Shown here: positions 1 to 16,270 of the stretch, piece by piece
How positions within the stretch are numbered: position 1 is the stretch's first letter
Layout of the letters: the number at the start of each line of letters is the position of its first letter
From: an uncultured Bacteroidales bacterium
GTDB taxonomy: Bacteria; Bacteroidota; Bacteroidia; Bacteroidales; P3
Length of the DNA: 64,000 bases
Assembly (NCBI GenBank): GCA_900314725.1
Contig: OMWJ01000002.1
Span: 1-64,000, forward strand
Direction: 5' to 3'
Notes under the pieces: generated by a model
What the model saw: only the letters and a program-made list of their open reading frames with translations
What the model was told of the DNA's origin: nothing
The model's database searches: none
Position numbers and translations under genes: made by a program

Positions 1-780
1 TAGTACCTTTGCAGCCACATCAAGGTTCTTGATTGTATTGGTAACGTCAGCGGAATTGGACTGCTGTTTGCCAATCCATTCAAGAGCCTTGTTTTTATCC
101 GCATACTTCAATGAATTATCTATATTATGTTCGCCCTCTGAAATCATATCAGAGATAAAAAGCTGTCCCTCTTTTCCGTGAATACTTGCTATCTCATTGA
201 TGGTCATTTCTTCACCATTTCTCTCAAGTTTAACGGCAACAGTTATTTTGTCGCTGTTTTCTCTTGTTATGTTGGTTATTATGATGGTGGATTTTGCTTT
301 TGTTCCCCATTCATAAACCATCATAGGATTGTTTATTGCATTCGGCAAATCTTTTATCTCTTCTATTGATATTCCGTGCTTATCTAAGTGTTCTTTCAGT
401 GTTTTTGCAGTTAATGTTATTTCACTCGCATTTAAACCAGAACTTCTCAATAAGGCATTAGGCTCGCCTAAATGCAGTATTCCTCCCTTTAGTTGCTTAT
501 CTTTAAATTCGTCTAATTCCTCATTAAACCTCTTATTAACTTCTTTATTTGATATTCTTTCAGGTCTTACTCTGCCGTTATACTCATTAATAATCCTCTG
601 TGCCTGCTCGTTGTCGGTGATAACATTATCCTTGCCTATGGCTTCGCCTAACAAATCTATCAAAGCGTCCCTCACTTTCGCCTCTTGCTCAGTGATAGGT
701 GCTTTTTCTGTAGCCTTGTGTTCCTTCCTCTTTTCTGGTCTGCAAACAGAGATGAGTTTTACAGATGGGTTGATGAGAAG
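1..780 (-). CDS. MuF C-terminal-like phage/ICE protein, partial, N-terminus lost
   Basis: An open frame of 260 codons runs from a stop at 781-783 to the left edge, so the C-terminus lies outside the window. It has no ATG near its 5' end; the first Met codons fall past its middle, in NNPMMVYEWG. The segment LGEPNALLRSSGL, KDLPNAINNPMMVYEWGTKA and EIASIHGKEGQLFI reads like the phage MuF C-terminal domain found in large polyvalent proteins of Bacteroidales phages and conjugative elements. The upstream part (EAIGKDNVITDNEQAQRII) also resembles such proteins. Codons such as GGC, GCC, GAG, CAG and ACC are commoner here than in the neighbouring genes, which suggests transfer. The 5' end appears fused to unrelated DNA, so this is probably a dead remnant. 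Family assignment is by eye. Confidence 0.5.
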
Positions 781-858
781 TTAGCCGATGGCTATACCGT
801 AATAATTGTGTATGATAAGGACGAAGATGTATATTTCGGATGGGCTTTAAAAGATTAG
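739..858 (+). pseudogene. 3' remnant of an unrecognised plus-strand gene
   Basis: The plus-strand frame reading FWSANRDEFYRWVDEK and then LADGYTVIIVYDKDEDVYFG ends at TAG 856-858. It has balanced, protein-like composition but no plausible start codon. Its upstream part overlaps the 5' end of the minus-strand MuF-like frame. I read it as the tail of a gene cut by insertion or deletion of the mobile element, with the join near 725-785. No family recognised. Confidence 0.3.
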
Positions 859-914
859 TTTCTTCTTCAGACTTTTGCTTTTGATGTTTGTCGAAAATAT
901 CAGGATTTGAAAAA

Positions 915-978
915 TTAAAACCAAGTCTTTTCATACAAAAGACTTGGTTTTAAGATAAAAAGATTTGATGTTTTTTTG
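915..978. repeat. Modular palindromic intergenic repeat, copy a
   Basis: A perfect inverted repeat has 17-nt arms TTAAAACCAAGTCTTTT (915-931) and AAAAGACTTGGTTTTAA (937-953) around the loop CATAC. It is followed by a GATTTGATGTTTTTTT word at about 961-977. It lies downstream of the minus-strand citC-citG fusion. It belongs to a family of six related sites in this window and could serve as a terminator for the fusion gene. Confidence 0.75.
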
Positions 979-1033
979 CGTTGTGTTTTAGGTAGTAGTG
1001 GAAGGTAAAACATAAGGTTTAAAGCAATGTATT

Positions 1034-2788
1034 TCAGAGTATAATTGAATCAATAAAGAGTGTAAGTGAAAGCATATCGGCTGCACCTCCTGGTGAGATG
1101 TTTTCTTTAACGAACTCTTTATTAAGCTTTTCTACCCTATCTATTGAGAAATCGTCCAAGATTTCCTGTGCTTGTTGCTTTACATGAGCAACAACTTCTT
1201 CTCCTTTTCTATAATATATGTTGGTATCATCCAAGTTAGTCATTATAAACAGAAGAAGTTTTATCAAAGAATGCTCTTCATTCCTATGTTTTCTATAAAA
1301 AGGCAACCACTCATCAAACAACAAAGGATAACCATCAATAGCCGAGTTTAAGGCTCCTTTTATATTATGTTTTTCAATAACCTTTTTACCGTGAGTATCA
1401 TTTGGTTGAGAGAATTTACTTGATAATAACTTTATCGTTTTTTGAAGTTGTTGTTCTTGTACTTTATCCCTTTGTTGGCAGAGATAAGAAGCAGCGTATA
1501 AGACTAATCCCATAGAAAATAAAGCACCTTTATAGGTATTTACGCCATTGGTGGTGAATAACATCTGTTTTTCTGCTTCAATACCGATGGTTTTAATCTT
1601 ATCTATATTTATAACATCCTCATTATAAGCAAGACAAGATAATTTAGTAAAGTGTGGGTGTAGAGAATAGATACTCTTCAGCATAAGATTATAGTCCATA
1701 TCTGAATGAGCGCCATTATCTGCCTTATCTACCAAACCTGGCTTGGGTGTTGTATCTAACTCTGCCTTAATGGACTGAACAGCAAGATATGACAATAAAA
1801 ATGGAATAGTAGTAGGATATACTAATTGCTTTGCATCATAGAAATCAAAGCTTGAAAGACATTCTCTTACAGTCGTTGCAGATATAATAACATTTGACTC
1901 ATTCTGCAATCTATCTACTTCAACAACTTTAATACATTTTTCAGGTAAAATACTTTTTATTAAATAGTTATACCTGTTAGTAAGAATGTCTTTTGGTTCT
2001 GTTCCTATGAATCTTTTCTTTATGTTTAACGCAGGAGCAATATGTTTGGAAAATAAATCTAAATCTAAAGAAATTTGAGTGTCTGTTGCGTCTGTTATTT
2101 CTTTTAGAAAATAAGTCGGGAAAGTAGTATTTGATATTTGATAATCACTTCCTTCACAAATGATTACATTTTTTAAATCTTCTGTTCCTTTAGTTATCAT
2201 CTGTTTTCTATCATCATAAGAAAACAGACTTCTATTTTCCTTAACTACAATAATATATAGATTATTAACTTCTTTAGCAGCTGTTTCTATCAAATATCTA
2301 TGTCCCAAGGTAAAAGGGTTAGCATTCATAACAATTGCTCCATTCTCCCCTTCTCTTCTTAGTGAAGCAAGGTAATCGCAATAATGTTTTAAGCCATTAC
2401 CGTTTTCTAAAAGTATTGCTTTATCTGAAGTCGCTAACAGTTTAAAACCTAATGAAGTGAATATCTCTTTATTTTTAGGTTTAGTGAATACTCTTACCGT
2501 ATCTTCTCCATTATTTATAGCTTGTAGATATAGATGAGAAATGAGTTTTGTTCCCATTCCTGTCTCTCGCAAGTCATCTGTAATAGCAATACATTTGATA
2601 ACATTACCTTGCAATCCTCCACCTCCAAGTAGGACATCGTCTTCTCCGACAAGAAAAACTCCTGCATAATAATCTACACCATCTAAACGTAAATCATTAT
2701 CATTGAGAAATTTCTCAACTTTATTCTTATATGATTTAATGCTCAGTGGTATTGACCTTATTTCAAAGTTCTGCCCAAATGTATCCAT
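1034..2788 (-). CDS. citC-citG: Bifunctional citrate lyase ligase / triphosphoribosyl-dephospho-CoA synthase (CitC-CitG fusion)
   Basis: The 584-aa product combines two enzymes that make active citrate lyase. Residues about 1-330 are CitC: an N-terminal GNAT-like segment (LRETGMGTKLISHL near 73-86), a nucleotidyltransferase HxGH-type motif NPFTLGH (157-163) and ISATTVRE (302-309). CitC acetylates the citrate lyase acyl carrier with ATP. Residues about 330-584 are CitG, which makes the prosthetic-group precursor from ATP and dephospho-CoA; the signature is DTTPKPGLVDKADNGAHSDM (345-364), with SPGGAADMLSLT near the C-terminus. Neither the lyase subunits citDEF nor citX is in the window. It is the most downstream gene of the minus-strand run with DUF1573 and nusB, 60 bp after the former. 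CitX-CitG fusions are well known; CitC-CitG is less usual. Confidence 0.88.
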   Translation of the reverse strand: MDTFGQNFEIRSIPLSIKSYKNKVEKFLNDNDLRLDGVDYYAGVFLVGEDDVLLGGGGLQGNVIKCIAITDDLRETGMGTKLISHLYLQAINNGEDTVRVFTKPKNKEIFTSLGFKLLATSDKAILLENGNGLKHYCDYLASLRREGENGAIVMNANPFTLGHRYLIETAAKEVNNLYIIVVKENRSLFSYDDRKQMITKGTEDLKNVIICEGSDYQISNTTFPTYFLKEITDATDTQISLDLDLFSKHIAPALNIKKRFIGTEPKDILTNRYNYLIKSILPEKCIKVVEVDRLQNESNVIISATTVRECLSSFDFYDAKQLVYPTTIPFLLSYLAVQSIKAELDTTPKPGLVDKADNGAHSDMDYNLMLKSIYSLHPHFTKLSCLAYNEDVINIDKIKTIGIEAEKQMLFTTNGVNTYKGALFSMGLVLYAASYLCQQRDKVQEQQLQKTIKLLSSKFSQPNDTHGKKVIEKHNIKGALNSAIDGYPLLFDEWLPFYRKHRNEEHSLIKLLLFIMTNLDDTNIYYRKGEEVVAHVKQQAQEILDDFSIDRVEKLNKEFVKENISPGGAADMLSLTLFIDSIIL

Positions 2789-2848
2789 TATATGCTATCA
2801 AGTTCTTAGAGGCTATTAACCTGATTAACAAACTTGTATATAAAGACA

Positions 2849-3262
2849 CTAATCTACTTCTGCAATTATCTTTAGATTAGTACGAGAAGGGTTTGTATTA
2901 GATGAAACTGTTACATATTTTTCTACTCTCATTCCGTGAGTACCTTTAGAATCGTATGTAACGGAAATAAGTCCTTCTTCTCCTGGTTTAATTGCCTGCT
3001 TTGGATAGTCGGCTACTGTACAACCGCAGTTTGCTGCCACATCTCCTATGACAAGGTCGTGATCGCCTACGTTCTTAAATTTGAAACTGCCGGTAACTTT
3101 CTCGCCAGAACGGATTGTATGAAAGTTAAGGACATCGTTTTCAAACTTAATAGCCGCTTGATTTTCTATAACAGAGACATCAATATTTTCCTTATTTTTT
3201 GAACAGGAAAACAATAGACAGCAAGCCATTAAAACCGCAAATAAATGTTTATTCATCATCAT
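2849..3262 (-). CDS. DUF1573 lipoprotein
   Basis: The 137-aa protein starts with an SPII signal ending in a lipobox (LLFSC, Cys20), so it is probably an envelope lipoprotein. The rest is one DUF1573 domain, an Ig-like fold common in Bacteroidota, with the typical core FKNVGDHDLVIGDVAANCGC near residues 52-71 and a TYDSKGTHG turn. The molecular function is unknown. Its first codons overlap the 3' end of nusB by 14 bp, so the two are translationally close; DUF1573 genes often sit next to nusB in this phylum. Three consecutive Met codons make the exact start uncertain by up to two residues. Confidence 0.85.
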   Translation of the reverse strand: MMMNKHLFAVLMACCLLFSCSKNKENIDVSVIENQAAIKFENDVLNFHTIRSGEKVTGSFKFKNVGDHDLVIGDVAANCGCTVADYPKQAIKPGEEGLISVTYDSKGTHGMRVEKYVTVSSNTNPSRTNLKIIAEVD

Positions 3263-4244
3263 TATCCTTTTTTACTACATCTAACAAATACTCATCATCA
3301 TTAATTTTGTGTATCTTGTTCTCTGTACGCAAATCAACCACAATTCTGTCTAATATACCATTGACAAACAAACGGCTTTTTTCGGTGGAGAACTCTTTGG
3401 ATAGTTCTATATACTCATTCAGTGTTACACGCAAAGGAATTGTAGGGCAATAGATAAATTCAGTTATTGCCATTTTGATTATGATTATATCAATAAAGGC
3501 AATACGGTCCATATCCCAATTCAGTATTCTACTATCTATTAACTTGTCATATTCTTCCCAATGATTTATGGTATTGCGGAAAAGATTGGACATATAATCT
3601 TGGTCTGTCTCTATCGCATTGTCTATTTTCTTATCAAAAGGAGTTGATAATAGTTTATCCTTGCAATCGGTTTGTTCCCAATTTCTAAGCAAGACAATAA
3701 CAACTTGACACAAATACTCGTAATCATCTTCCCATGAGAATTTCTTTTCAATCAACAGCTCATAGAAATTAGCGTCCTTTATGATGTAGTTCTTGAACAA
3801 CTGAACTATTACACGTCTGTGCTGCTCAAAGGTTACCTCTTCACTTTGCATATAGTCTTTATAGGAATCTGAACCTTTGAAACGAAGAAATATTTGACGT
3901 AACAAATCTTTCTGATCGTGCCAATTAATATGCAAACGTTTGATAGCTTTAGTCAATTGCTCGCATTCAGCCATTCTATCAAAGACAGGATTTTCTACAA
4001 AACGATAGGATGGATTCTTTTCCTCTTCTGTAGGACGGAATTTATTCTTACCTTCATCTATTATCTCCAAAGCAATGTCTTTTATCTCAAAGATAATCGA
4101 AAGTAAATAAACCTCTAAGTCAAACATCTCATCTATATTGGAAAACATCCATTTTTCTTGTGCTTCTATATTGCTTCTGCCGGCAGTATGATAGGCATAT
4201 AAGGATTGTAGCACTTTTGCTCTTAAAAAATGACGATTAAGCAT
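3249..4244 (-). CDS. nusB: Transcription antitermination factor NusB
   Basis: The 331-aa protein begins MLNRHFLRAKVLQSLYA, the usual start of the enlarged NusB of Bacteroidota. Its NusB RNA-binding core is in the C-terminal half (DRIAFIDIIIIKMAITEFI, then LRVTLNEYIELSKEF and FVNGILDRI). NusB binds boxA RNA with NusE/S10 and supports rRNA antitermination. The N-terminal half is the phylum-specific helical extension. It overlaps the DUF1573 gene by 14 bp. A TATCTTTG-type -7 element lies on the minus strand at 4316-4323, 72 bp before the start. Confidence 0.92.
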   Translation of the reverse strand: MLNRHFLRAKVLQSLYAYHTAGRSNIEAQEKWMFSNIDEMFDLEVYLLSIIFEIKDIALEIIDEGKNKFRPTEEEKNPSYRFVENPVFDRMAECEQLTKAIKRLHINWHDQKDLLRQIFLRFKGSDSYKDYMQSEEVTFEQHRRVIVQLFKNYIIKDANFYELLIEKKFSWEDDYEYLCQVVIVLLRNWEQTDCKDKLLSTPFDKKIDNAIETDQDYMSNLFRNTINHWEEYDKLIDSRILNWDMDRIAFIDIIIIKMAITEFIYCPTIPLRVTLNEYIELSKEFSTEKSRLFVNGILDRIVVDLRTENKIHKINDDEYLLDVVKKDNDDE

Positions 4245-4315
4245 GTATCTCTTCGTTCTTTATATTTATGCAATTAATAAATTCACACCATAACAAACTT
4301 CTTGTTATGAGCCTG

Positions 4316-4323
4316 CAAAGATA
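4316..4323 (-). promoter_or_regulatory. Putative -7 promoter element of nusB
   Basis: The minus strand reads TATCTTTGCAGG, matching the Bacteroidota -7 consensus TAnnTTTG. I see no good -33 TTTG at the usual distance, so this rests on the -7 box and its position upstream of nusB. Confidence 0.45.
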
Positions 4324-4431
4324 CTATAATTTATTTAAATAACGAAAAACTCAAAGTTTTTTTTATCTGCGTTACTTGATATAATAAACGTAACAAAGAC
4401 CTATCTTGTTTCCTATACCTTAAAACATTAC

Positions 4432-4471
4432 AAAAAAAAACGGCTATCATCCTTATGAGTGGTAACCGTTT
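4432..4471 (-). terminator. Rho-independent terminator after the ferritin-like locus
   Basis: On the minus strand an imperfect hairpin (AAACGGTTACCA pairing with the segment ending in CCGTTT; outer 6-bp stem perfect, about 4438-4471) is followed directly by a run of nine T (plus-strand A run 4432-4440). It closes the transcript that carries the ferritin-like gene and two small ORFs. The 4245-4431 stretch otherwise holds only the nusB promoter region. Confidence 0.55.
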
Positions 4472-4493
4472 GATTTCATAAATTGTTATATAA

Positions 4494-4589
4494 CTAATTA
4501 TTCTTCATCTTTTCTATGACAAAACAACCGGACTGCTTTGCATGTATGTAAACCGATGCAGCTTCTTTATTATTTTCCCTATTAAGCAT
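4494..4589 (-). CDS. Possible small ORF, 31 aa
   Basis: An ATG-started frame on the minus strand encodes 31 residues (MLNRENNKEAASVYIHAKQS and onward) and ends in TAG just before the terminator at 4432-4471. It is collinear with the ferritin-like gene and the 47-aa ORF. No family recognised, and at this length chance is a real possibility; it may be the tail of a decayed gene. Confidence 0.25.
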   Translation of the reverse strand: MLNRENNKEAASVYIHAKQSGCFVIEKMKNN

Positions 4590-4633
4590 TTAAAAATAAA
4601 TAATACAAACCAAACGCAACTAACTCCTTGTAT

Positions 4634-4777
4634 TTATTCTGCTAACATAACATAGTTCTGAACTCTGCCACGATAACGGATATTTTTATCAAACTTATAG
4701 ATGTCTTTTTTTTCACCAAAAGCAAAAGGATGGATACTATACCCATCCTTTCTAAATTTTACTGCAAGTATCTTCAT
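4634..4777 (-). CDS. Small hypothetical protein, 47 aa
   Basis: An ATG-started frame encodes 47 residues beginning MKILAVKFRKDGYSIHPFAF and ending YRGRVQNYVMLAE. It starts 15 bp after the stop of the ferritin-like gene on the same strand, so it is probably cotranscribed. It is basic with mixed beta-type composition and has no signal peptide or membrane segment. No family recognised. Its coding composition looks better than that of the 31-aa ORF that follows. Confidence 0.4.
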   Translation of the reverse strand: MKILAVKFRKDGYSIHPFAFGEKKDIYKFDKNIRYRGRVQNYVMLAE

Positions 4778-4791
4778 AGACAGTTATGGTA

Positions 4792-5139
4792 TTACATCAT
4801 TGCTGTTAAGAAATTCTCGTATCCTAATTTATCTATATAGTTTAGATACTGAGCCTCCCAAGCCATATGGTCTTTCTCACCGTCAATCCACTTATAGATC
4901 AGTTTTTGTGTAGGATAGTCATCAGCGAAGGCTTCTGCTAATTCACTCATTATCTTTATAGCCTCAGGTTGATAATCAGATTCTATTTGTTGTTTAGGAT
5001 CATCATAGAAAGGAAATTCCATAGTTGTCATTACTTTCTGTAAGTCAGCAGGTTTGCAGCCAAGTTCTACTAAACGGTTTAATACTTCTTCAGCCTCATC
5101 CCACTCTTCTTCTGCTTCTTCTTTCCATTTGTCAGCCAA
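4792..5139 (-). CDS. Ferritin-like protein, main part downstream of an in-frame TAG
   Basis: The 115-residue frame can only open at a TTG (LADKWKEEAEEEWDEA). The C-terminus (DGEKDHMAWEAQYLNYIDKL, then GYENFL) closely resembles the last helix of bacterioferritins. The N-terminal stretch resembles helix B with acidic metal-site residues (EEAEEEWDEAEEVLNRL). The same frame continues upstream past one TAG (5146-5148) into a 35-codon segment starting MTKEEALKQF, which fits helix A. The complete gene would be 153 codons, close to normal ferritin length. It therefore looks like one ferritin-family gene interrupted by a single nonsense codon. If translated alone, this fragment lacks helix A. Confidence 0.6.
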   Translation of the reverse strand: MADKWKEEAEEEWDEAEEVLNRLVELGCKPADLQKVMTTMEFPFYDDPKQQIESDYQPEAIKIMSELAEAFADDYPTQKLIYKWIDGEKDHMAWEAQYLNYIDKLGYENFLTAMM

Positions 5140-5145
5140 TTTATT

Positions 5146-5253
5146 CTAACCATTCAAACGGCAATATGCTGAGAAAGCAAAATGTTGTTTACTATTTCCA
5201 AACCAAGCAGAACCAAGCTCGGCAAACTGTTTTAAAGCTTCTTCTTTTGTCAT
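5146..5253 (-). pseudogene. N-terminal fragment of the interrupted ferritin-like gene
   Basis: Thirty-five codons from ATG 5253 (MTKEEALKQFAELGSAWF, then HFAFSAYCRLNG) end in TAG at 5146-5148. The TAG is in frame with the downstream ferritin-like ORF, with only AAT AAA between it and that ORF's TTG. Ferritins commonly carry a Tyr or other aromatic residue at this point (GYNKL), so a TAT/TAC to TAG change is the simplest explanation. TAG is used as a normal stop elsewhere in the window, which argues against genome-wide recoding. Confidence 0.55.
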
Positions 5254-5371
5254 AATTGTTCTTTTTTAATTAATACTTTTATTATTTGATTTCTAATTAT
5301 TAAGACTGCAAGGTTAGTATTATTATTTATAACAACAAAATTTATCGCATATTTTCTTGAAATGAAGGACT

Positions 5372-9062
<3,691 letters not shown>

Positions 9063-9115
9063 TTAAAATTTTATTATAACCCTATAAAGTGTTTTTTCGT
9101 TATTATTAAGGTTTG

Positions 9116-9123
9116 CAAAAATA
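9116..9123 (-). promoter_or_regulatory. Putative -7 promoter element of the acyl-CoA ligase gene
   Basis: The minus strand carries TATTTTTGC, matching TAnnTTTG, 54 bp before the ATG. No clear -33 box was found. Confidence 0.4.
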
Positions 9124-9206
9124 CAAAAATATTTTAAAGTAAGTTATAATTTTATAGTAATTTTTGCGTTAGTAGTAGCAAAAAGAAGTAAAAAAAAGAG
9201 AAAACG

Positions 9207-10634
9207 ATGGCAACATATAATAATGTAGTAGAAATAAGAAGATACATTCTTCAGATGTTAGCAAAGATGATTTGTGATGGCAACATAGAAGAGAAAATTG
9301 ACCGTCTTCCTTTTGATATGTACAGTAAAAAAACTGAACATACACGTTGTTGTATTCACAAAGCAAGAGCGGAAGCAAAGTATAAAACAATGGCTATACT
9401 TGGTTTCAATGTTGATGATGAAGTTGATGAGTTTGATAATCTTTCTCATTATGTTCAACTTGCCAAAAAAAGAGAAAAAAGTACAGAAGTAATGCTAACT
9501 GTTGTAGATGAAGCATGTTCTTCTTGTGTTAAAAGTTCTTATATTGTTACAAATTTATGCCGTTCTTGTATTGCACATCCTTGTACATACGCATGCAAGA
9601 AAGGAGCGATGATAAAGCATGAAAATTCCCAAGCACACATTGACACAGAAAAATGTATCAACTGTGGTTTATGTATGCAGGCTTGTCCTTATCATGCTAT
9701 CATATTTCAACCTGTTCCTTGCGAAGAAGCTTGTCCTGTAGGAGCAATAAGCAAGCGTGAAGACGGCGTTGAACACATAGACCCAGAAAAATGTATCTAT
9801 TGTGGAAAATGTATGGTGGCTTGTCCATTTGGAGCTATCTTTGAGAAGAGTTTTATGTTTGAGATAATGAATGCAATAAAACAGAAGAAAGAAGTTATTG
9901 CTATGGTAGCACCGTCTTTAGGAGGACAGTTCAATCAGCCATACGGGAAAGTCCTTACTGCGATTAAAAAACTCGGATTTTCTGACGTTGTAGAAGTAGC
10001 AAAAGGTGCTAATATGACAACAGAAAACGAAACCAAAGAGTTTGAAGAACGTATGGAAAAAGGAGAAAAGTTTATGACCACTTCTTGTTGTGCAGCGTGG
10101 AGAGAACTATATAAGAAACACCTCCCAGAAATTCAGCCATACGTTTCTGATGCTTTAACACCTATGGGTTATACTGCTCAATGGCTAAGAAAGACTAAAA
10201 AAGATGCAGTCCTTGTCTTTGTCTCTCCTTGTGTAGGAAAAAGAAGCGAATGCCATTCTAATCCGGATGTGAATTACGTTCTTTCATACGAAGAATTGGA
10301 TGCCTTGTTCAAAGCTTCAGAAATAGATATTGCTTCTTTGGAAGAAACTGTTTTGGACAGCACTATTCTTGGACACGGTAGAGGTTTTGCAATGGTAGCA
10401 GGAGTTACTGCTTCTGTAAAAGCAACAGCAAAGAATCCAGAAATAATCAACGATGTGGTTATAGATGGTTTGACAAAGCAAAGCATAAGAGATTTGAAAC
10501 TGTGGGCAAAGAAAGGAGAAGCACCAGGTAACTTTATTGAAGTTATGTCTTGTCCTGGAGGTTGTGTTAATGGTTGTGATACAATCAATCTTCCTAAGCC
10601 AGCAGCACGTCAAATACTTCCTACTACAAAGTAG
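9207..10634 (+). CDS. Monomeric [FeFe] hydrogenase, group B-like
   Basis: The 475-aa protein is a cytosolic iron-only hydrogenase that probably evolves or oxidises H2 with ferredoxin. The N-terminal part carries Cys pairs (CSSC, CRSC, CTYAC), then two 4Fe-4S motifs CINCGLCMQAC (150-160) and CIYCGKCMVAC (196-206). The H-cluster domain has L1 TSCCAAW (292-298), L2 SPCVGKRSE (340-348) and L3 VMSCPGGCVNGC (446-457), so all four H-cluster cysteines are present. The usual Pro in TSCCP is Ala. The Cys-rich N-terminus and motif variants resemble the group B hydrogenases of gut anaerobes. The maturase HydG is encoded at 25385-26791; HydE and HydF are not in the window. Confidence 0.9.
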   Translation: MATYNNVVEIRRYILQMLAKMICDGNIEEKIDRLPFDMYSKKTEHTRCCIHKARAEAKYKTMAILGFNVDDEVDEFDNLSHYVQLAKKREKSTEVMLTVVDEACSSCVKSSYIVTNLCRSCIAHPCTYACKKGAMIKHENSQAHIDTEKCINCGLCMQACPYHAIIFQPVPCEEACPVGAISKREDGVEHIDPEKCIYCGKCMVACPFGAIFEKSFMFEIMNAIKQKKEVIAMVAPSLGGQFNQPYGKVLTAIKKLGFSDVVEVAKGANMTTENETKEFEERMEKGEKFMTTSCCAAWRELYKKHLPEIQPYVSDALTPMGYTAQWLRKTKKDAVLVFVSPCVGKRSECHSNPDVNYVLSYEELDALFKASEIDIASLEETVLDSTILGHGRGFAMVAGVTASVKATAKNPEIINDVVIDGLTKQSIRDLKLWAKKGEAPGNFIEVMSCPGGCVNGCDTINLPKPAARQILPTTK

Positions 10635-10685
10635 AACTAAAAAAGAAATAAATAAATTTATTAATATTATAAAAACCTTATCAAC

Positions 10686-13601
10686 ATGAAAAAATTACTT
10701 ATTAGTGGCATTATGTTGATGGCTATGCTTTTTGCAGTTTTCACAGTTAATGCCCAAAATTTCAAGAAACAAACGTATAAGAATGACCCTATGAATGTTA
10801 TTCACTATACTTTGGACAATGGTTTGGAAGTCTTTCTTTCAGTAAATAAAGATGTTCCAAGAATACAAACCTACATTGCCGTAAGAGTTGGTAGTAAGAA
10901 CGACCCAGCAGAATCTACAGGTCTTTCTCACTATTTGGAACACCTAATGTTCAAGGGAACAACTTCTTTTGGTACTCTTAATTGGCAAGAAGAGCAAAAA
11001 TACATAAAAGAAATAGAACGTTTGTATGAGGTATATAATCATACTACAGACCCTCAAAAAAGAACTGAGATTTATCATCAAATAGACTCTGTTTCTTACA
11101 TAGCTTCCAAATATGCTATCCCTAATGAGTATGATAAAATGATGTCTATGATAGGCGCTCAAGGGACCAACGCATTCACATCTAATGATATGACGGTTTA
11201 TCAAGAAGACATACCTTCAAATGAGTTGGAACGCTGGTTGAAAGTTGAAGGAGACAGATTTGCAGACCCTGTTTTCCGTCTATTCCACACAGAGTTAGAG
11301 GCTGTTTATGAAGAAAAGAACATGGGTATGGCTAACGATGGAAGAAAAGTATATGAAGCTTTAAACCTTGCTCTTTATCCTAATCACCCATACGGAACTC
11401 AAACAACAATAGGAACAATAGAACACTTAAAAAATCCTTCTTTGGACAATATCAAAAAGCACTTTGAAAACTATTATGTTCCAAACAACTATTGTATTGC
11501 TATGAGTGGAGACTTTAATCCTGATGAAGCAATAAAACTTATCAACAAATATTTTGGAAAAATACCTGCTAAGAAAGTTCCAGAGTTCAAACCTATCAAA
11601 GAACCTGCTATTACTGAAGTAAAGAAAGTTGATGTTTGGGGCTTGGATGCAGAAAACATCAGAATAGGTTTCCGTATTGATGCTGGAAACGGAAGCAGAG
11701 ATGTTTTACTTGCCTCTCTTATGGATAGAATACTTAGCAACGGTAGTTGTGGTTTGATAGATGAAAACATCAATCAAAAACAACTCACAATGTATGCAGG
11801 AAGTGGTGTTAGTGCTTTGAATGACTATTCTGCTTTCTTGCTTGTCGGTATGCCAAAGCAAGGACAAACTCTTGACGAAGTAAAAGATCTTCTTTTGGAA
11901 CAAATAGATATTTTTAAATCTGGTAATTGGGATGAGAGTCTTCTTACTGCTGCTATAAACAACCTTAAACTTGATGAAATGAAAGGTTTAGAAAGCAACG
12001 AAAATCGTGCCATGAGCATTATTTCTGCTTATCTTGCTCATCAAGATTGGCAAGATGCAGTCAATGAAACTGAACAAATGTCTAAAGTAACTAAGAAAGA
12101 ACTTATAGATTTCGCAAAACGTATCTTCAAAGACAATAATTATGTAGTTATCTACAAACGTCAAGGCGAACCAAAGGACGTTAAGAAGGTTGAAAAGCCA
12201 GCCATCACTCCTGTATATATGAATAGAGATGTAGAAAGTCCTTTCTTAACTGAGGTAAAGAATATGAAGGTTAAAGAAATTGAGCCTGTGTTTGTAAACT
12301 ATGAAAAAGATATGCAAAAAGGAAAACTTAGCAAAGGCAGTGAAGTTCTTTACGTAGAAAACAAACAAAATGGCAGATTCCAACTTAGTTTCCGTTATGA
12401 TTTCGGATACCGTTATAATAAAATGGCTTCAGTATGCAACTATGCTACAGATTATCTTGAAAGCACCAATCGTTCTCTTGCTCAGATAAAAAGAGAAATG
12501 TATGACATAGCTTGTGATTACAATATATCTATGGGTGGTGGTGAATACTGCACAGTTTCTCTTGAAGGTTTAACAGAAAACATGGAAAAAGCATTGGATA
12601 TTGTTGAAGACATACTTAATAACCCTAAAATCTCTGATGATGTTATAGAAAATGTAAAACTTGACATCCTTAAATCACGTAATGATGCTAAGGCTAATCA
12701 AAACAGAATTTTCCAACGCTTAGTTTCTTATGGTAACTTTGGTCAAGAAGGTTTGAAATACACTCCTACTGACGAAGAAATCAACTCTTTGTCTGCCGAT
12801 ATGGTTGTAAAGACTCTTAAACAAATGACTGAACAAAAACAGACTGTTCTTTTCTATGGTAATATGAAAATGAAAGATGTTATCAAACTTATAGACAAAA
12901 AGCATAAAGTAAGCAACAAAAAGTCAATGCTTATCAAACAAGGAAACTATGATTATCTACCTACAGAAGAAAACAAAGTCTTATTCGTTAATTACAACGC
13001 AAAACAATCACTTTGCAGACAACTTACAACCATAGACGAGATATTCAATCAAAACCTTACTCCAAGAGTAGATTTATATAACGAATACTTTGGTGGAAGT
13101 ATGAACAGTATTGTTTTCCAAGAGATAAGAGAAAAACGTTCATTGGCTTATTCTGCTGCTGCATATTTTGTTAGCCCTTCTGAAAAAGAAAACCACTATA
13201 TGAATATGTCTCACATCGGTACACAAAACGACAAACTTATAGACGCTTTGAGTGCTTTCACAGACTTATTTGAAAATATGCCTGTATCACAACAGAATTT
13301 TGATATAGCAAAACAAAGCCTAATATCTTCTTACAAAACTTCTCGCACAAGCAAGATGGGTATCATCTCTTCTTATCTTTATACTCATAAGATGGGATTG
13401 GAGAATGGTTGGCAAGAAAAAGAATACAACGCAATCAAGACTTTGAAACTTGATGATGTTTTGGACTTCAACAAGAAATACATCAAAGGTAAGAAACGTA
13501 CTATCGTTGTTCTTGGCAATGAAGACGAAATAGATATGGAAGGTTTGAAAGCCTTTGGTAATGTTAGCAAACTTTCTCTTGAACAAATCTTCGGCTACTA
13601 A
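10686..13601 (+). CDS. M16 family zinc metallopeptidase, secreted
   Basis: The 971-aa protein has a signal peptide (Met1 to about Ala23, VNAQ) and two tandem M16 halves. The first half has the inverted zinc motif HYLEH (82-86), with the distal Glu in the ELEAVYEEKN stretch, so it should be catalytically active. The second half has the M16_C fold and no HxxEH, as is usual for the pitrilysin family. It probably degrades peptides in the periplasm. It starts 52 bp after the hydrogenase and may be cotranscribed. A strong terminator follows at 13627-13657. Confidence 0.93.
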   Translation: MKKLLISGIMLMAMLFAVFTVNAQNFKKQTYKNDPMNVIHYTLDNGLEVFLSVNKDVPRIQTYIAVRVGSKNDPAESTGLSHYLEHLMFKGTTSFGTLNWQEEQKYIKEIERLYEVYNHTTDPQKRTEIYHQIDSVSYIASKYAIPNEYDKMMSMIGAQGTNAFTSNDMTVYQEDIPSNELERWLKVEGDRFADPVFRLFHTELEAVYEEKNMGMANDGRKVYEALNLALYPNHPYGTQTTIGTIEHLKNPSLDNIKKHFENYYVPNNYCIAMSGDFNPDEAIKLINKYFGKIPAKKVPEFKPIKEPAITEVKKVDVWGLDAENIRIGFRIDAGNGSRDVLLASLMDRILSNGSCGLIDENINQKQLTMYAGSGVSALNDYSAFLLVGMPKQGQTLDEVKDLLLEQIDIFKSGNWDESLLTAAINNLKLDEMKGLESNENRAMSIISAYLAHQDWQDAVNETEQMSKVTKKELIDFAKRIFKDNNYVVIYKRQGEPKDVKKVEKPAITPVYMNRDVESPFLTEVKNMKVKEIEPVFVNYEKDMQKGKLSKGSEVLYVENKQNGRFQLSFRYDFGYRYNKMASVCNYATDYLESTNRSLAQIKREMYDIACDYNISMGGGEYCTVSLEGLTENMEKALDIVEDILNNPKISDDVIENVKLDILKSRNDAKANQNRIFQRLVSYGNFGQEGLKYTPTDEEINSLSADMVVKTLKQMTEQKQTVLFYGNMKMKDVIKLIDKKHKVSNKKSMLIKQGNYDYLPTEENKVLFVNYNAKQSLCRQLTTIDEIFNQNLTPRVDLYNEYFGGSMNSIVFQEIREKRSLAYSAAAYFVSPSEKENHYMNMSHIGTQNDKLIDALSAFTDLFENMPVSQQNFDIAKQSLISSYKTSRTSKMGIISSYLYTHKMGLENGWQEKEYNAIKTLKLDDVLDFNKKYIKGKKRTIVVLGNEDEIDMEGLKAFGNVSKLSLEQIFGY

Positions 13602-13626
13602 AATACGAATCTTTGTTTCTAAATAA

Positions 13627-13657
13627 AAAAGGACGATATGAAAAATATCGTCCTTTT
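13627..13657 (+). terminator. Rho-independent terminator of the M16 peptidase gene
   Basis: Perfect 13-bp arms AAAAGGACGATAT and ATATCGTCCTTTT surround GAAAA, with T-rich sequence at the 3' side. It lies 26 bp after the stop. Confidence 0.85.
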
Positions 13658-13663
13658 CTTGTT

Positions 13664-13749
13664 AAAAAAAGAGTTGGTTTTAAAAAATTAAAACCAACTC
13701 TTTACACCCTAAACATCAAGAGTTAATTTTTTTAAACCAAGTCTTTTTT
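13664..13749. repeat. Modular palindromic intergenic repeat, copy b
   Basis: A perfect inverted repeat AAAGAGTTGGTTTTAA (13668-13683) / TTAAAACCAACTCTTT (13688-13703) is followed by the core ACACCCTAAACATCAAGAG and then AAACCAAGTCTTTTTT (13734-13749). It comes just after a complete conventional terminator, so termination alone does not obviously explain it. Confidence 0.75.
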
Positions 13750-13844
13750 CATCAAAAGTAAAGTTATTAATCTCTATCTTGTAAAATATAATCAACACTT
13801 GTTCGTTATCAATATTGATGAACTAATATTTAACTACAAGACAA

Positions 13845-14981
13845 GTGAGAATAGGAGTTAATACACGTTTGCTTATAGATGGGAAGTTGGAAGGCATAGG
13901 TTATTTTGCCTTTCAAACTCTTAAAAGGATGACAACTCTTCACAAGGAACACGAGTTTGTTTTTTTCTTTGACAGACCCTATAGTCAAGATTTTGTTTTT
14001 TCAGATAATGTCAAACCTGTTGTTATCCCATTGCAAGCACGACATCCTATACTTTGGAAGATATACTTTGATTACTTGCTTCCTTTGTACTGCAAGAGAT
14101 ACAAGATAGACATATTCTTTTCTCCTGAGAATTACTTACCCAAAACAAGTGGTATTCCCTTGATTTGTACGGTGCATGATTTGAATTTTCTGCATGACAA
14201 TTCTTTTATTGGAAACAAAAGTCATCAAAAATATTTCCTGAAGTATTTCCCTCTTAATGCAAAAAAAGCGGACAGTATTGCCACAGTCTCAGAGTACAGC
14301 AAGAAAGACATTATCAATACTCTGAATATTGAAGAAAATAAAATATCAGTCGTATATTCTGCTGCTAATGCTTGCGACACTAAGCAAAAGGAAAGCGATA
14401 TTGTAGCCACAAAACAAAAATATACCTCAGGAGAAGAGTATTTTTATTTTGTTGGGGCAATATCTAAGAGAAAGAACCTTACGGGCATATTCCGTGCTTT
14501 TGACTTGTTTAAACAAAGGCAGAAAGGTAAAGACAACAAGACAAAACTTGTCATAATAGGAAATAGAAAATGGTGGCAGGGAGAAATAGAAGACACCTAC
14601 AATGCAATGAAATATAAGCAAGATGTTGTATTCACGGGTAGAATTTCAAAGGAAGAGATATACAACATTGCCTGTGCTTCTTTAGGATTAGTTTTCCCGT
14701 CATTTTTTGAAGGTTTTGGAGTACCTATTATTGAAGCCTTTGAAAGCAAGACAGCAGTTATTACGTCTAATCTTACTTCAATGCCTGAGATAGTTGGAGA
14801 TTCAGCCTTGGTCGTTGATCCATACGATGACAATGCAATATGCGATGCAATGACAACAATATACAATGACAGACAGCTTAGACAAGACCTTATAGATAAA
14901 GGATTACAAAGAGCAGATTTTTTTACTTGGGATAAAACATCGGAACTGATATGGAACATAATTCAAAAATACATAAAATAG
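13845..14981 (+). CDS. GT4-type glycosyltransferase
   Basis: The 378-aa protein is a GT-B fold glycosyltransferase of family 4. The N-terminal domain starts MRIGVNTRLL and includes GIGYFAFQTL. The C-terminal sugar-nucleotide site has FFEGFGVPIIEAFES, the E-x7-E motif. The start is GTG, because the family N-terminus coincides with it. The next gene (murF) begins 31 bp before its end, so they form an operon with anmK. The sugar donor and acceptor cannot be read from sequence; the context suggests envelope or polysaccharide work. Confidence 0.88.
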   Translation: MRIGVNTRLLIDGKLEGIGYFAFQTLKRMTTLHKEHEFVFFFDRPYSQDFVFSDNVKPVVIPLQARHPILWKIYFDYLLPLYCKRYKIDIFFSPENYLPKTSGIPLICTVHDLNFLHDNSFIGNKSHQKYFLKYFPLNAKKADSIATVSEYSKKDIINTLNIEENKISVVYSAANACDTKQKESDIVATKQKYTSGEEYFYFVGAISKRKNLTGIFRAFDLFKQRQKGKDNKTKLVIIGNRKWWQGEIEDTYNAMKYKQDVVFTGRISKEEIYNIACASLGLVFPSFFEGFGVPIIEAFESKTAVITSNLTSMPEIVGDSALVVDPYDDNAICDAMTTIYNDRQLRQDLIDKGLQRADFFTWDKTSELIWNIIQKYIK

Positions 14982-16270
14982 ACAATAATCTGTTGCAACA
15001 AGTCTTAGAAGAATATCAGAAATCTTATCTTCTTACGACAGATTCAAGAAAAGTTCAACAAGGAAGTATTTTTGTTGCACTGAAAGGAGAAAACTTTAAT
15101 GGCAATACATTTGCTTCTATGGCTTTGGAACAAGGAGCAAGCATGGTGATAATAGATGACAACAACTATTATATTGACCAAAGGACTATATTGGTTGAGG
15201 ATAGTTTAAAGTTTCTTCAAAAGTTTGCCAATTATTATAGAAAACAATTTGATATTCCTGTCTTTGCCATAAGTGGAACAAACGGCAAGACAACAACCAA
15301 AGAACTTATTCATCAAGTTCTTGCAAAAAAATACAATGTTCTTGCGACCGTTGGCAATCTAAACAATCAGATAGGCGTACCGCTTACTCTTCTAAACCTT
15401 AGAGCAGATACCCAGATAGCAATCATTGAAATGGGAGCATCACATATTGGAGATATTGATGAGTTATGTAATATAGCAGAACCTACTTGCTGTCTTTTGA
15501 CAAACGTAGGAACAGCACATATAGAGGGATTTGGCTCCAAAGAAGGTGTTTTAAAAACAAAGACAGAACTATACAGATATATAGACAAACAAAAAGGAAA
15601 AGTATTTGTCAATTATGACGATGAAGGTCTAAGAAAACAGCAAATTCAAAACAAAACTACTTATTCTTTGAATGACAAGTCAGCAGATATTTTTGCAAAA
15701 ATGATAAACGCAGACTCTCCTTTTGCATCTATAGAGATAGAAGGAAGGAAGATTAACTCTTGTCTTGTAGGTTCTTTCAATGCATATAATATTTTAGCTG
15801 CCGTAGTTGTAGGGAAGTATTTCAATGTGCCTTTAACGGATATAAAACAAGCAATAGAAGAATATCAACCAACAAACAATCGTTCTCAGATTCAAAAAAC
15901 TCAAAAAAATACCCTGATATTAGATTGCTACAACGCTAATCCGTCTTCATGTAAATTTGCCTTAGAAGCTTTTGAGAAAATCCATTCAGAAGATAAACGA
16001 GTTTTTATTGGAGCAATGAAAGAATTGGGTGCTGTAAGTCGGGATGAACATCATAATATAGTAAAGAAATTAAAGACAATGTCTTTAAAAGAGATTATAC
16101 TTGTTGGAGAAGAATATAAAGAGTTTGCGAATTTAGATGAAAGAATAAAATATTTTGACTCTTCTAATGAAGCAAGCGAATATTTAAAGCAAGAAAATAT
16201 AAACAATTCTCTTATATTAATCAAGGGTTCAAGGGCAACAAAAATGGAGGTTTTGATAGATGTTCTATAA
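14951..16270 (+). CDS. murF: UDP-N-acetylmuramoyl-tripeptide--D-alanyl-D-alanine ligase MurF
   Basis: The 439-aa Mur ligase adds D-Ala-D-Ala to UDP-MurNAc-tripeptide in cytoplasmic peptidoglycan synthesis. An N-terminal MurE/MurF-type domain (LTTDSRKVQQGSIFVALKG) precedes the ATP loop GTNGKTTTK (109-117). NLNNQIGVPLTLL is typical of MurF, and DCYNANPSS (about 325-333) marks the C-terminal linker. It overlaps the upstream glycosyltransferase by 31 bp and the downstream anmK by 11 bp. Confidence 0.95.
   Translation: MEHNSKIHKIDNNLLQQVLEEYQKSYLLTTDSRKVQQGSIFVALKGENFNGNTFASMALEQGASMVIIDDNNYYIDQRTILVEDSLKFLQKFANYYRKQFDIPVFAISGTNGKTTTKELIHQVLAKKYNVLATVGNLNNQIGVPLTLLNLRADTQIAIIEMGASHIGDIDELCNIAEPTCCLLTNVGTAHIEGFGSKEGVLKTKTELYRYIDKQKGKVFVNYDDEGLRKQQIQNKTTYSLNDKSADIFAKMINADSPFASIEIEGRKINSCLVGSFNAYNILAAVVVGKYFNVPLTDIKQAIEEYQPTNNRSQIQKTQKNTLILDCYNANPSSCKFALEAFEKIHSEDKRVFIGAMKELGAVSRDEHHNIVKKLKTMSLKEIILVGEEYKEFANLDERIKYFDSSNEASEYLKQENINNSLILIKGSRATKMEVLIDVL

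Follow-up and report, generated by a model that had tools for sequence, protein, structure and literature searches.

Amber suppression, the recoding of TAG, is known from some phages, and genes recoded in this manner combine an in-frame TAG with a sequence that is otherwise conserved. The same combination occurs in a bacterioferritin-like gene of an uncultured Bacteroidales bacterium, located within a 64,000-nucleotide stretch of DNA that was analyzed as a whole and is referred to here as the window (GC 0.334). When translated through its TAG, the gene yields a protein whose modeled structure resembles P. aeruginosa BfrB (5d8q; TMq 0.81) and E. coli Bfr (1bcf; TMq 0.83) in having the four-helix fold. 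Unlike those proteins, with which it shares just 18–20% identity in structural alignments, the protein of the window is encoded by a gene that a TAG interrupts. This TAG is probably a real nonsense mutation, and a fixed one, in a ferritin gene that was functional until recently, and it would be one step in the decay of a small cassette.

Architecture of the Interrupted Ferritin Gene

Read on the minus strand, the locus consists of 35 codons, the TAG (5148-5146), the codons AAT and AAA, a 115-codon ORF that opens with TTG (5139-4792), and a terminal TAA (Table 1). The initial annotation had described these pieces as a single 153-codon protein of the ferritin family, split by one in-frame TAG into 35 and 115 codons, and this description is borne out by the translation, by PF00210 (Pfam Ferritin) and by co-linear homologues. 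Both pieces align in order with intact 153-aa homologues at 109 full-length loci, which are up to 91% identical. With an X at the stop, PF00210 scores 43 bits across the junction, relative to a cut-off of 24.5; because this match spans the junction, chance does not account for the pairing of the two ORFs. The NCBIfam bacterioferritin profile TIGR00754, in contrast, scores 29 bits, far below its equivalog cut-off of 125.55, as does one intact relative at 31.4 bits. Sequence matches to bacterioferritins in the PDB begin at E 4.9e-06. With regard to the di-iron ligands, the alignment with 2fkz starts past the Glu expected in helix A, and an E and an H near residues 126–129 align with the E-H pair of helix D.

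Table 1. Features of the ferritin locus and its surroundings in the window.
Feature	Position	Strand	Remarks
Ferritin/bacterioferritin-like gene	4792..5253	-	153 codons plus terminal TAA, interrupted once in frame by TAG; a pseudogene or an allele of the strain
In-frame TAG	5146..5148	-	Codon 36, in the helix A/B loop; Trp in all close relatives
5′ fragment	5149..5253	-	35 codons, corresponding to helix A
3′ ORF	4792..5139	-	115 codons, TTG start, without helix A; no homologue seen with a start here
47-codon ORF	4634..4777	-	Codons 1–44 (4646-4777) form the beginning of an MBL-fold plus rubredoxin gene (313 codons in relatives)
ligA (NAD-dependent DNA ligase), presumed	5372..7408	-	Intact upstream neighbor, outside the cassette of relatives
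nusB-like gene, presumed	3249..4244	-	Intact downstream neighbor, outside the cassette
Candidate Bacteroidales-type promoter	5309..5339	-	TTTG-19-TAnnCTTG, 86 to 56 nt upstream of the ferritin start

The read-through model, in which the TAG was folded as W, is a helical bundle with a pLDDT of 94.1. Helices are predicted at residues 3–33 (A), 37–63 (B), 68–77, 86–93, 97–108, 113–143, and 145–152. Foldseek matched the model to Bfr structures (best E 8.2e-05, TMq 0.81, 18% identity), in keeping with a four-helix bundle. The stop, at residue 36, lies between helices A and B, and helix A would indeed be lost from the main fragment, as the initial annotation had stated.

It is scarcely credible that the gene is naturally split and that a functional 115-aa protein is produced from the TTG. 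This codon does stand three codons past the stop, in a frame that stays open for 115 codons, but helix A belongs to the predicted bundle and the N-terminal segment is present in all 109 full-length relatives. Homologues that start naturally at LADKW, which had been named as evidence that would count against an interrupted gene, are not found among these relatives.

Codon 36 in Related Ferritins

Close loci were defined as those with at least 60% identity and coverage of the N-terminal half, with distant and short matches dropped. In this set, codon 36 encodes Trp without exception (110/110 loci and 98/98 distinct DNA sequences), and a stop at this codon occurs in none of the 110. A wider count, made first and covering 89 loci, comprised 81 W, five F and one Y, the rest being the window's own two copies; Phe and Tyr are confined to distant homologues. 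The stop had been proposed to occupy the position of an aromatic residue, which is correct, but the residue is Trp rather than the suggested Tyr.

Each species was represented by one genome. Relatives came from a scan of genome contigs, which confirmed 257 and from which the top 80 were taken, and from a family search that gave 33 places beyond the window, in genomes that may overlap with those of the scan. Internal stops were absent from the 109 full-length ferritin loci, from the 33 places of the family search and from five other matches in the order sample. A stop that comes early, where a sense codon is otherwise conserved, in a gene with intact copies elsewhere is the pattern of a nonsense pseudogene, and the window shows it.

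Use of TAG in the Host

The window has 44 ORFs that do not overlap and reach 100 aa or more. TAG terminates 11 of them, and beyond it these 11 frames remain open for no more than 27 codons. Other genes with an in-frame TAG had been suggested as a check on suppression, and no other long read-through was seen among the ORFs of the window. The genome also encodes RF1 (prfA; 489.6 bits relative to a cut-off of 423.25). A change of genetic code is ruled out by the use of TAG as a stop together with prfA.

An amber suppressor tRNA, likewise suggested as a check, was sought among the tRNAs of the genome and none was found. The search gave 38 tRNA matches from 150 scored candidates out of 159, and ARAGORN returned one as 'tRNA-???' and left one uncalled. 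None of its 36 anticodon calls is CUA, in a list that lacks Ala and Lys-UUU and leaves nine of the 159 candidates unscored. The two matches left without a call are tRNA-like genes located outside the window, L129 (G000:C24:38847-38920) and L130 (G000:C1:4032-4100). They agree exactly in the acceptor, the start of the D-arm and the T-arm but differ in the anticodon arm, and ARAGORN assigns them no anticodon. Neither shows a CUA anticodon by eye. At zero mismatches, their exact pattern occurs in 0 of 13 other genomes of the genus.

If the TAG were read through, whether by a suppressor tRNA, by natural misreading or through programmed recoding, a full-length ferritin would be made. Conservation in both halves of the gene would fit such a mechanism, as would the presence of two unusual tRNA-like genes in this genome. 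Nevertheless, read-through is highly improbable: no called anticodon is CUA, RF1 is present, TAG is an ordinary stop, no relative carries a stop at codon 36, and the short residence of a recent mutation accounts for the conservation equally well. It is most improbable that read-through reaches a useful level, by way of an odd tRNA-like gene or near-cognate misreading, such that leaky termination sets the dosage of ferritin. If true, this would occur in a species with no other ferritin and with odd tRNA-like genes that are private within the sampled genus. A nonsense mutation is preferred, and of the two possibilities offered in the initial annotation, a recent lesion or a suppressed codon, it is the former that agrees with the tRNA calls, RF1 and the normal use of TAG.

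Constraint on the Ferritin and Age of the Stop

The ferritin of the window departs from its relatives at three of 105 positions that are at least 95% conserved, namely the stop, A15S and K76T. With the stop set aside, two of 104 conserved positions are changed and 102 are kept. Its median pN to relatives is 0.072, compared to 0.081 among the relatives themselves (109 loci). pS exceeded 1 for some pairs, and synonymous distances were left unused.

Base composition at silent sites sets the gene apart from its relatives. GC3 is 0.30, whereas relatives average 0.71 and none falls below 0.48. At fourfold sites, GC is 0.09 in the ferritin, 0.14–0.31 in three neighboring genes of the host and 0.36–0.91 in relatives, and identity between the ferritin and any relative is at most 0.49. 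These fourfold values indicate that silent sites are saturated and have adapted to an AT-rich type of genome. Since conserved residues were kept despite this saturation, purifying selection apparently maintained the ferritin in an AT-rich host for a long time, up to the very recent past. A Poisson bound on the two changes allows no more than ~0.027 changes per nonsynonymous site since the loss of constraint; it takes each codon to have ~2.25 nonsynonymous sites and counts both changes as later than the stop. It would appear that the TAG either arose very recently or is not real in the population.

The latter could arise from a sequencing or consensus error, or from a minor allele fixed in the assembly, with the ferritin intact in most cells. 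A single lesion on the scale of one base, in a gene that keeps its other conserved positions and is the only ferritin found in the genome, is what an error or minor allele would produce. This explanation is considered unlikely, although it retains some weight. The assembly, in 29 contigs, has a completeness of 99.33% and a contamination of 0.07%, and the 11 long ORFs of the window that end in TAG all close within 27 codons of it. Moreover, the adjacent MBL-fold/rubredoxin remnant represents independent and real decay of the same cassette, which makes pure error less likely as the whole story.

A Decayed Neighbor

Directly downstream of the ferritin, 44 of the 313 codons of an MBL-fold/rubredoxin gene persist, followed by three codons and a stop. 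The rest of the gene was not found in the window. The only other match to the protein in the genome covers its rubredoxin-like residues 261–312 and lies on another contig. 'No other damage' had been claimed in the initial annotation; this is accurate so far as the ferritin goes, but the gene next to it is damaged. The 47-codon ORF was also considered as a conserved small protein and rejected, being the 5′ end of the 313-codon gene with its constraint relaxed.

The median pN of the MBL remnant to 40 relatives is 0.225, compared to 0.085 among those relatives (48 loci were collected, the 40 most similar to L041 were used, and L064 was dropped for its stop). Because the MBL piece has drifted and the ferritin has not, decay probably took place in two steps, with the MBL gene first.

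The start of the MBL gene was recognized in 53 relatives. Its frame extends for at least 240 codons in 41 of them, runs off the locus in seven and is short in five. Stops or internal deletions appear to have broken the gene independently in the latter five (L064 9683-9814, L013 3304-3480, L022 3320-3440, L047 5984-6046, and L088 6062-6121); an in-frame TAG is responsible in L064. In genome G036 (L005 1504-1590), it is the ferritin that has been reduced, with approximately its last 30 residues remaining beside the remnant of an AraC-type regulator. Based on the five broken MBL genes and the reduced ferritin of G036, the cassette appears to decay repeatedly.

Cassette Composition and Distribution

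In many relatives, the ferritin is followed ~5 to 4,200 bases on by the 313-codon gene, which encodes an MBL fold with a C-terminal rubredoxin. Between the two there often lie genes for PNPOx-like and small winged-helix proteins and for a rubredoxin. Examples in which the ferritin is accompanied by PNPOx-like, winged-helix, rubredoxin and/or MBL-rubredoxin genes include L041 5001-7349, L067 5001-8590, and L014 5001-8268. A regulator named by eye as AraC-type is often divergent upstream of the ferritin in relatives; the single copy scanned in Pfam gave no match. A literature search on the cassette found no paper.

The ferritin of the cassette is distributed patchily over several families of the order, at 82–91% identity. 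At E <= 1e-20, it was detected in 32 of 190 genomes of the family sample: one of 14 in the host's own genus, 30 in a single other genus, g3, and one in g5. The order sample contained it in six of 393 genomes, those other than the window's belonging to four other families (82–88% identity). A nucleotide comparison of window positions 1-15000 with the loci of relatives revealed a shared ferritin and, in some, a shared MBL start, and the neighboring genes were not shared. The patchy distribution and the unshared neighbors suggest that the cassette was probably transferred horizontally, and it is from these that we infer its acquisition. In the tree, the window falls inside the clade of close relatives, joined to 42 rows with 94/85 support, and no donor is singled out.

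The flanking genes, which we take from their sequences to be ligA and a nusB-like gene, permitted no empty-site comparison because other genes precede nusB in the four loci of the genus whose ORFs were examined (by sequence, one fabD-like, one lptG-like and two ilvE-like), and no nusB locus save the window's own has a ligA match. A motif similar to the candidate promoter of the ferritin, based on what we take to be the Bacteroidales consensus, was found in 22 of 105 relatives, relative to 0.85 expected from shuffles.

PF00210 matched three places in the genome. One is the window ferritin (42.7 bits, with one TAG inside), and no further true ferritin was found; the remaining two, named by eye from their sequences, resemble rubrerythrins. 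Several members of the genus possess a distant ferritin (~26% identity) plus a 250-codon MBL gene, and this distant ferritin is absent from the genome considered here. The nonsense allele suggests that the organism may now be without a true ferritin and rely on rubrerythrins.

Proposed Sequence of Events and Comparison with Known Systems

Under the preferred explanation, a nonsense mutation, selection would long have kept a bacterioferritin-like gene in an AT-rich Bacteroidales genome. The MBL gene would have been cut to its first 44 codons at an earlier time and have drifted since, and the break in the ferritin would be the second step, in which a nonsense codon very recently replaced the invariant Trp codon to give a null allele. 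Translation would end after 35 residues, which make up helix A, and a restart at the TTG would give a 115-residue piece that lacks this helix and should fail to form the four-helix bundle. We infer this loss of function and order of events from the sequence. Several points weigh against a null allele. Conserved halves would also be expected if the TAG came from faulty base calling or assembly, belonged to a minor allele of the strain, or were read through; the genome yielded no second true ferritin, and loss of this one should be costly; and the tRNA list is incomplete, with no Ala or Lys-UUU seen and with two tRNA-like genes that have no clear anticodon.

Taken alone, the locus matters little, being a nonsense allele of recent origin in an iron/redox gene of patchy distribution, in a gut-type Bacteroidales. 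It does illustrate sequential loss cleanly, since one cassette gene is already in drift and its partner has only just been broken.

The locus differs from TAG-recoded genes in that one gene is affected, a CUA tRNA was not found, RF1 is kept, and TAG is a normal stop. It closely resembles the ordinary nonsense pseudogenes of decaying bacterial cassettes, with a single premature stop, a conserved remainder, and a truncated neighbor under relaxed constraint. There is no difference in kind from these; the cassette, a ferritin with an MBL-fold/rubredoxin protein, is simply uncommon and patchy.
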